A DNA stretch of 55,595 bases from NCBI GenBank assembly GCA_903921205.1, contig CAIXPF010000062.1, forward strand, positions 1 to 55,595, read 5' to 3'. Every line of letters begins with the position of its first letter. Position 1 is the first letter of the stretch. Below the pieces are notes generated by a model. The model searched no databases. It was not told the DNA's origin and worked only from the letters and a program-made list of their open reading frames with translations. Both the position numbers and the translations under genes were made by a program. The stretch is from an uncultured Acidimicrobiia bacterium (GTDB lineage Bacteria > Actinomycetota > Acidimicrobiia > Acidimicrobiales > CAIXPF01). Positions 54,158 to 55,595 of this stretch are shown one piece after another.

Positions 54158-55513
54158 TCAGAGACGAGCGACCTGCTCGTCGGTGGGCTCCGCTCAACAG
54201 AACCAGGGCTCGGTCAGCCAGGCGATCGTGACGGGCTGCGGTGCCTTCTCGACGTGGGGGTGCGCCGGCGGTGCCGGGGAACCATCGACCAGGGCACGCA
54301 GCCGGGTGTGCACGGCCCGACGTTCGCCCGGCCCGGCCGGTGTCCGGGCCGCCTCACGCACCACCTCGCCCACGCGCCGGTACAACTCGTCGACATACGG
54401 ATCGGTATGGGCCCAGGGGTGGACCAGGAGGTCGGGGTCGAAGGCCCCGACCGAGGACACGATCTCGGGCAGCTCCAGCAACGCCGACCGGGCGCTCACC
54501 AACAGCCGAACGCCGTACTGGACGGGCGCCACCGAGCCCACCAGGCCCAACGCGTCGACGCTGTCGAGGAACTGCCGGTAGGACTCGACGGTCGTCCACG
54601 GCGTGAACGCGACGAAGGTCGCCTCGAGGCCGATCCCGGCGTCACGGCAGGCCGCCACCACCACCTCGACATCTTCTGCCGTATGGCCTTTTCCCAACCG
54701 CTGCAGGGTCAGCGGATCGAACGACTCCACGGCAGAGGTGATCAGCACGCAGCCGGCGCCGCGCAACTCCGCCAGGAGGTGGCGGTGCTCGCGGAGATGG
54801 CTGATCCGGGCAGTGAGATCGAAGCTCACCTGCGGGAACCGTTCGTGCAGCGCCCGTACCACCCGCCGGGCGTGGGCCGGCCCGTTGAGGAAATCGGGAT
54901 CGGTGAAGCTGACATGACCGGCGCCGCGTTCGACGAGGTCTTGGACGTCGGCCAGCACCCGCTCGACGGCAACGGCACGGAACCGCCCGCCGTACACCGG
55001 CACGATCGGGCAGTGCCGGCAGCGATGGCGGCAACCGACCGACGCCGCCGTGGCACCCACCAGGCGCTCGGTCCCGTCGGCGAGGACCAACCTGGCGTAC
55101 CGGTCGAGCGACGGCAGATCGTCCCGGCCGGGCTCACGACGGTCGGCCACGCCCAACCCGGTGCCATGGTCGGACACCTCGACGCCCGCCTCGGCGAGGA
55201 CGCTGCGGTTGAGCACGGCGTACAACCCGACCGCCATGAGCCGGGCGCCCGGGGCGATCGCCCGGACCCGCGGCACCAGCGGGGCCATCAAGCGGGTGGC
55301 GGTGTGCATCGGCAGCGACCACACCACCAGCTCGACCCCGGCCGCCAGGGCGTCGTCCCACGGGTCGACCGCAAGGTCGGCGAGCCGCACCCGCCAGCCC
55401 GCCGCCCGCAATGCCGCGGCCAGCTCGGCCAGGGCCGATGGCCGGCGACCCAGGTCGTAGGTCGACAGCACCAGGGCCGCCGCCCCCGCGAACGGGGGCG
55501 GCGGAAGGGCCAC
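54158..55513 (-). CDS. Radical SAM selenoprotein with CUAEP tail (TGA at 54194-54196 read as Sec440)
   Basis: A 451-residue protein. Residues 10-100 form a degenerate B12-binding-like Rossmann part (no DxHxxG); residues 161-168 hold the Cys-x3-Cys-x2-Cys cluster (CRHRCRHC) that binds 4Fe-4S and SAM, followed by FTDPDFLN, SAVESFDPLTLQRLGKGHT and FVAFTPWTT. The frame reaches WLTEPWFC and then TGA; in-frame readthrough gives Cys-Sec-Ala-Glu-Pro and then TDEQVARL to a second TGA at 54158-54160. I recall a radical SAM family named for a CUAEP/CCAEP tail, whose members use Sec or Cys here. A SECIS-like hairpin follows the TGA. Start GTG 55513 after GGAGG. Ordinary gene callers would end the gene at 54194. 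Reaction unknown. Confidence 0.9.
54163..54181 (-). promoter_or_regulatory. Bacterial SECIS element (selenocysteine insertion hairpin)
   Basis: In the transcript GACGAGC, loop AGGUC, GCUCGUC: a perfect 7-bp stem starting 12 nt after the UGA. The apical GGU matches the SelB-recognised loop of E. coli fdhF (GGUC). Sits within the coding tail, as in bacterial selenoproteins. Confidence 0.88.
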
Positions 55514-55568
55514 GGTTCCGCCCGCCTCCGGCGGACGCGCAGCGACCCCTTGCCCGATGGCCCCTGAC

Positions 55569-55595
55569 GGCCCCGGCCCCGGCCCCGGCCCCGGC
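55569..55595. repeat. GGCCCC tandem repeat at right window edge
   Basis: Four and a half copies of GGCCCC end the window, probably continuing beyond it, upstream of the radical SAM gene. Confidence 0.8.

Follow-up and report, generated by a model that had tools for sequence, protein, structure and literature searches.

Among the described systems closest to the protein reported here is ArsL, a radical SAM enzyme that transfers the 3-amino-3-carboxypropyl group of SAM to As(III) (PMC8552651; PMC12159101). Selenocysteine (Sec) is also known in radical SAM and organometal enzymes, including TIGR04167 radical SAM, TrsS and ArsM-like proteins (PMC13188914, PMC9312934). The NCBIfam model NF040546 defines a family named 'CUAEP/CCAEP-tail radical SAM (seleno)protein'. 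The text of PMC13188914 contains neither 'CUAEP' nor the NF0405xx models. Our literature search found no paper with the term 'CUAEP' and none with 'RCCLKC', the tail of the ArsL family; the selenoprotein papers of Haft and co-workers that are cited in PMC13188914 may mention the CUAEP family.

We analysed a gene for a relative of this family in a contig of 55,595 nucleotides from an uncultured Acidimicrobiia bacterium (the window, which is the whole contig). A first-pass annotation of the sequence had described the gene as an overlooked selenoprotein gene. Based on sequence comparison, it is almost certain that the TGA at 54196-54194 is decoded as Sec, so that the product would be a radical SAM selenoprotein of 451 residues in which Cys439 and Sec440 form a C-terminal pair. 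The word 'overlooked' holds in part. The family is not new and already carries the NF040546 name, but this protein scores 21 bits under the cut-off of that model, and there is at least one further member whose RefSeq entry stops at the TGA. What appears to be new is the linkage to an ATP-grasp ligase and a DUF169 subtype; our analysis also adds the covarying SECIS element and the history of Sec/Cys exchange.

The gene and its domains

The gene is located on the minus strand and contains the following features:

54158..55513, minus strand: complete ORF of the selenoprotein (451 residues, then the stop), with GTG at 55513 as its proposed start; match to NCBIfam NF040546, E = 1.8e-143
54194..55513, minus strand: ORF per conventional gene call, 439 aa, C-terminus ...EPWFC
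54194..54196, minus strand: in-frame TGA, predicted Sec440; TGA, TGC and TGT interchange at the same codon in homologues
54185..54211, minus strand: tail motif E-P-W-F-C-U-A-E-P, residues 435-443; columns invariant or nearly invariant in 54 homologues
54163..54181, minus strand: predicted SECIS hairpin, with 5' arm GACGAGC (54181-54175), loop AGGTC (54174-54170) and 3' arm GCTCGTC (54169-54163)
54158..54160, minus strand: predicted true stop TGA; conservation with the same-genus homologue L047 falls from 97% to 47% behind it
55010..55033, minus strand: CxxxCxxC motif for the SAM-binding [4Fe-4S] cluster, Cys161/Cys165/Cys168, invariant in alignments
54629..55042, minus strand: radical SAM domain, residues 158-295 (PF04055, 59.3 bits; model pLDDT ~95)
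55190..55441, minus strand: N-terminal B12-binding-like domain, residues 25-108 (PF02310, 26.0 bits, below the cut-off of 32.1)

The TGA at 54196-54194 is preceded by TGT and followed in frame by GCG GAG CCC ACC GAC GAG CAG GTC GCT CGT CTC. The read-through frame thus ends in ...TEPWFC-U-AEPTDEQVARL before a second TGA at 54160-54158. The first-pass annotation had read this tail and its coordinates exactly. It had also expected a conventional gene call to lose 12 residues including Sec, and the residues dropped are exactly U440-L451. Its assignment of the product as a radical SAM protein agrees with the Pfam Radical_SAM match and the CxxxCxxC motif. When 54 homologues were aligned, the only invariant cysteines of the family were the CxxxCxxC set and the tail pair.

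The AlphaFold model of the protein has a mean pLDDT of 92.2, with ~85-90 in the tail segment, and its top matches among solved structures are AprD4, OxsB and TsrM. Inspection of the translation by eye found no D-x-H-x-x-G motif, and a conserved P-M-H-T-A is present in its place. The D-x-H-x-x-G motif is missing from some B12 enzymes, so that this protein may still use B12.

Only 82 nt separate the start of the gene from the end of the contig, and the frame is open all the way. The upstream neighbour is consequently not visible, and the GTG start at 55513, a reasonable choice, is an unproven best guess. Immediately upstream of the gene, the last nucleotides of the contig are GCCGGG repeats (55566-55595 in the window). 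These repeats may have caused the assembly to break there.

Conservation of the tail and exchange of Sec and Cys

The set of homologues was drawn from 395 genomes in the class of the window (the family is present in 119) and from 79 loci in a species-wide collection. The C-terminal sequence EPW(F/Y)C[C/U]AEP is kept in nearly all of them, across ~10 phyla. An EPWFC ending with no conserved tail behind it, which the first-pass annotation had named as evidence that would refute its reading, is therefore not borne out. A few divergent members in the class alter the Ala or the Glu, giving CUSEP, CSEP or CCAAP. Tails in which Ala is changed to Ser include C-U-S-E-P in genome G360 (locus L129) and USEP in genome G327 (locus L140).

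The second tail residue is encoded by TGA in 48, TGC in 82 and TGT in 18 of 148 loci, near-copies included. Cys thus takes the place of Sec in 100 of these loci, as the first-pass annotation had stated for some members. When only distinct tails are counted, TGA is found in 36 of 125 and a Cys codon in the remaining 89. The codon for the first tail Cys is TGA in none of the 148 loci. On a family tree calculated with FastTree, from which the tail was left out and which was rooted on four plasmid RCCLKC/ArsL proteins, a minimum of 12 switches between Sec and Cys is required; supported branches force at least 7 of them, and the count is approximate because the tree has long branches.

The nucleotide sequence around the TGA was also compared with that of L047. 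Identity is 83% in the 300 nt before the TGA and 97% in the 36 nt from the TGA to the last sense codon, with a single synonymous change, and drops to 47% in the 60 nt beyond the second stop. Together with the covarying hairpin described below, these alignments place the read-through tail far beyond chance.

A related case is found in Thermomicrobium roseum (L203:7923-9359, NC_011961.1). The RefSeq protein WP_012643191.1 is named as CUAEP/CCAEP-tail, yet it ends in ...WFC. In the DNA, WFC is followed by TGA GCG GAG CCG and then by a hairpin; the stretch behind this TGA has diverged and still folds into a stable hairpin. The RefSeq protein is therefore probably cut at Sec.

A SECIS hairpin and the selenocysteine machinery

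A 7-bp stem is located at a constant distance behind the TGA (GACGAGC-AGGTC-GCTCGTC in the window). It was identified by comparison of homologues. Among the 36 distinct TGA-type sequences, 94.0% of the stem cells are paired and 67 cells are altered on both sides, with two-sided changes in 6 of the 7 stem pairs. Covariation of the stem is 0.713 in this set, versus 0.216 for shuffled sequences and 0.07-0.13 for slid partners. In the same columns of the 89 distinct Cys-type genes, only 39.0% of the cells are paired, no better than in slid controls. The hairpin therefore tracks the TGA rather than the protein sequence, as a SECIS element should. The Rfam model SECIS_1 (RF00031) has no match in this genome, nor in any of 14 control genomes, and its silence here is thus uninformative.

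Genes for the selenocysteine machinery, which the first-pass annotation had proposed to look for, are all present in the same genome:

selA, C34:8235-9455, 398 bits
selB, C34:10846, 281 bits
selD, C67:41127-42080 (L171), 344 bits, with one in-frame TGA
tRNA-Sec, contig C17, anticodon TCA (UCA)

Given its in-frame TGA, selD is probably a selenoprotein gene itself. Among genomes of at least 90% completeness, all 25 with a TGA-type tail have selA, compared with 30 of the 49 that have a Cys-type tail (p=1.3e-4). In the proposed decoding, the hairpin at 54181-54163 would act together with SelB and tRNA-Sec to insert Sec at the TGA.

These data bear on a simpler explanation, in which the TGA works as a normal stop codon, Cys439 is the last residue of the enzyme, and the likeness downstream is left over from a lost Cys-type tail. 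A standard gene finder closes the ORF at this TGA, and RefSeq does likewise for T. roseum. Against it, 36 distinct tails retain both AEP and a covarying hairpin behind the TGA, and supported branches require at least 7 switches between TGA and Cys codons. Coding-type conservation also reaches the second stop and goes no further, and this genome has the Sec genes, with selA in all 25 near-complete TGA-type genomes. We therefore consider an ordinary stop very improbable, and decoding of the TGA as Sec is the reading adopted here.

Relationship to the NF040546 family

The protein, read through the tail, scores 478.7 bits against NF040546, below the cut-off of 500, which is NCBI's curated threshold for automatic naming. 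The alignment runs through the tail, with residues 126-449 matched to model positions 146-467. In the tree, on which the program flagged long branches, the protein groups with L047 and L126, and next with G058/L021 (support 97; 582 bits), so that it is nested among members that score above the cut-off. By its tail and phylogeny, it is a divergent relative of NF040546; under NCBI's rule it is not a member. The second-best NCBIfam model is ArsL, NF040542, with 224.4 bits against a cut-off of 450, and the RCCLKC tail is not present.

Candidate partner genes

The first-pass annotation had called the reaction and the partners of the family uncharacterised. For the reaction this agrees with our literature search, but candidate partners can now be named. 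One is a protein of ~410 residues with ATP-grasp_4 and LAL_C2 domains. It matches no NCBIfam model above cut-off, and its closest solved structure is the L-amino acid ligase BL00235 (228 bits). Its gene directly flanks the enzyme gene, in the same orientation, in 45 of 79 loci, which belong to Actinomycetota, Pseudomonadota, Acidobacteriota, Nitrospirota and Chloroflexota; it is located somewhat farther off in Ignavibacteriota. Genome-wide, the ligase is present in 115 of 119 genomes with the enzyme versus 47 of 276 without it (395 genomes of the same class; p=5e-55, a value inflated by shared ancestry within the class). The four genomes with the enzyme and without the ligase are incomplete or fragmented. 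The adjacency is seen in several phyla, and this evidence is therefore unaffected by ancestry within the class.

The genome of the window contains one ligase, a divergent one (363 bits; G000:C34:91671-92873), on a contig other than that of the enzyme. Ligase and enzyme genes do not adjoin each other in this genus, and the sister species G338 has the ligase without the enzyme. No DUF169 or Nfu-type gene adjoins the enzyme in the genus either. The flanking genes of L047, named by reading their sequences, are enoyl-CoA-hydratase-like upstream and LytR-CpsA-Psr-like downstream, the latter being common to the window.

The 47 class genomes that keep the ligase without the CUAEP enzyme include L187 and L188. 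In these two, which were inspected, the ligase is located beside a Nfu-type gene on the opposite strand. The ligase may therefore have a role of its own.

ATP-grasp genes are also found in ArsL-like RCCLKC clusters on plasmids of Pantoea, Priestia and Alicyclobacillus (L204, L205 and L207). ArsM is present in two of these three clusters, and a carboxymuconolactone-decarboxylase-like gene in two. Their gene content suggests arsinothricin-type peptides; our literature search found no paper joining arsinothricin with ATP-grasp. A special kinship between these ATP-grasp proteins and the CUAEP partner is unsupported, with scores of 85-143 bits versus 228 for BL00235. Since they are only distant kin, the pairing of enzyme and ATP-grasp shared by the two systems may have arisen independently.

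A gene for a DUF169 protein neighbours the enzyme gene in 35 of 79 loci. The low-scoring DUF169 subtype occurs in 52 genomes that have the enzyme and in a single genome that lacks it, although the subtype split was drawn after the scores were seen. The DUF169 protein in the genome of the window is of a different, stronger-scoring subtype and was dropped as a partner. A Nfu-type Fe-S carrier is likewise a neighbour in 35 of 79 loci, often head-to-head with the ligase gene. The antisense ORF families that emerged from neighbourhood clustering are mostly shadows that the real genes cast in GC-rich DNA. Arsenic genes do not recur beside the CUAEP genes in these neighbourhoods.

In all 13 Chloroflexota loci (L078-L123), lipA is located beside the enzyme, with aceE slightly farther away. 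In ~12 other, mostly actinobacterial loci (e.g. L101, L133, L142, L144, L160 and L164), aceE is nearby on the opposite strand. Nfu-type proteins serve LipA in E. coli. Together with the frequent Nfu-type neighbours, these arrangements raise the idea that the product of the selenoprotein is related to lipoate or sulfur insertion and serves pyruvate dehydrogenase. The lipA and aceE adjacency is, however, restricted to two sets of related genomes and hardly occurs outside them. In addition, the protein has no second LipA-like cluster motif, since its only invariant cysteines beyond CxxxCxxC are those of the tail pair. Such a product is improbable.

A possible role of the Cys-Sec pair

Our own proposal is different, and by analogy to ArsL we put it forward tentatively, as possible rather than probable. 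The C-terminal Cys-Sec pair would come near the SAM/[4Fe-4S] site, as may also hold for the vicinal pair of the ArsL RCCLKC tail. There the thiol-selenol pair, soft and easily reduced, would bind or reduce the substrate or a radical intermediate. Sec and the Cys that most members carry would be interchangeable, with Sec the more reactive of the two. The product would probably be a small amino-acid-like molecule, which the ATP-grasp ligase, of the L-amino acid ligase type, could then join to another amino acid, with the DUF169 protein and the Nfu-type Fe-S carrier as accessories. A location of the tail pair at the active site is consistent with the invariance of only the CxxxCxxC and tail cysteines and with ArsL being the nearest named relative. 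The ATP-grasp genes in the Pantoea, Priestia and Alicyclobacillus clusters fit the ligase step. As arsenic genes do not recur beside CUAEP genes, the analogy may not extend to the substrate.

A broader version of this proposal is more doubtful. It supposes a pathway widespread in ~10 phyla, in which the Sec/Cys-tailed enzyme would attach a heteroatom (As, S, Se or P) to a carbon in the skeleton of an amino acid, perhaps through ArsL-like aminocarboxypropyl radical transfer. A dedicated ATP-grasp ligase would then make a peptide-like metabolite, again with the DUF169 and Nfu-type proteins as accessories.

Our study sets right the end of a protein that gene callers truncate and supplies a testable SECIS element. 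Because Sec and Cys replace each other naturally at one site, this family is well suited to studies of the contribution of selenium to a radical SAM enzyme. With a specific ATP-grasp ligase and a DUF169 subtype tied to it, the enzyme family, until now of unknown function, becomes part of a small candidate pathway open to expression and assay.

Comparison with known systems

The top structural match of the protein is the radical SAM diol dehydratase AprD4 (PDB 6fd2; Foldseek E 1.5e-19, TM-score ~0.67). The two share an architecture of an N-terminal B12-like domain and a radical SAM domain. The sequence matches AprD4 as well, at a far lower score of 44 bits. This likeness suggests another role for the tail of the selenoprotein. 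The Cys-Sec pair could serve only as a redox relay, for recycling of the enzyme or reduction of an intermediate, and the reaction could be AprD4-like or other 5'-deoxyadenosyl-radical chemistry rather than ArsL-type aminocarboxypropyl transfer. Yet ArsL is far closer by sequence family (224 versus 44 bits), and it also bears a C-terminal vicinal Cys pair; we know of no such pair in AprD4. A redox relay is a serious possibility that falls somewhat short of an even chance.

The resemblance to ArsL, on which our proposal of a substrate-binding or redox Cys-Sec pair is modelled, extends over much of the fold. The ArsL/RCCLKC-tail proteins (NF040542) are homologous to the window protein over residues 14-396 with ~28-30% identity, and they share its CxxxCxxC spacing, its PW and GSxLL motifs, and a vicinal Cys pair at the C-terminus. 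The tails differ, being RCCLKC in ArsL and C(U/C)AEP here. ArsL genes are located in arsenic clusters whereas CUAEP genes are not, and the four ArsL-type sequences stand apart from all CUAEP/CCAEP sequences on the tree. The TIGR04167 radical SAM, TrsS and ArsM-like selenoproteins belong to families other than that of the window protein. With its NF040546 homologues the protein has the same domains and the same tail, although it lacks ~25-35 residues near position 110-127 that most of them have.
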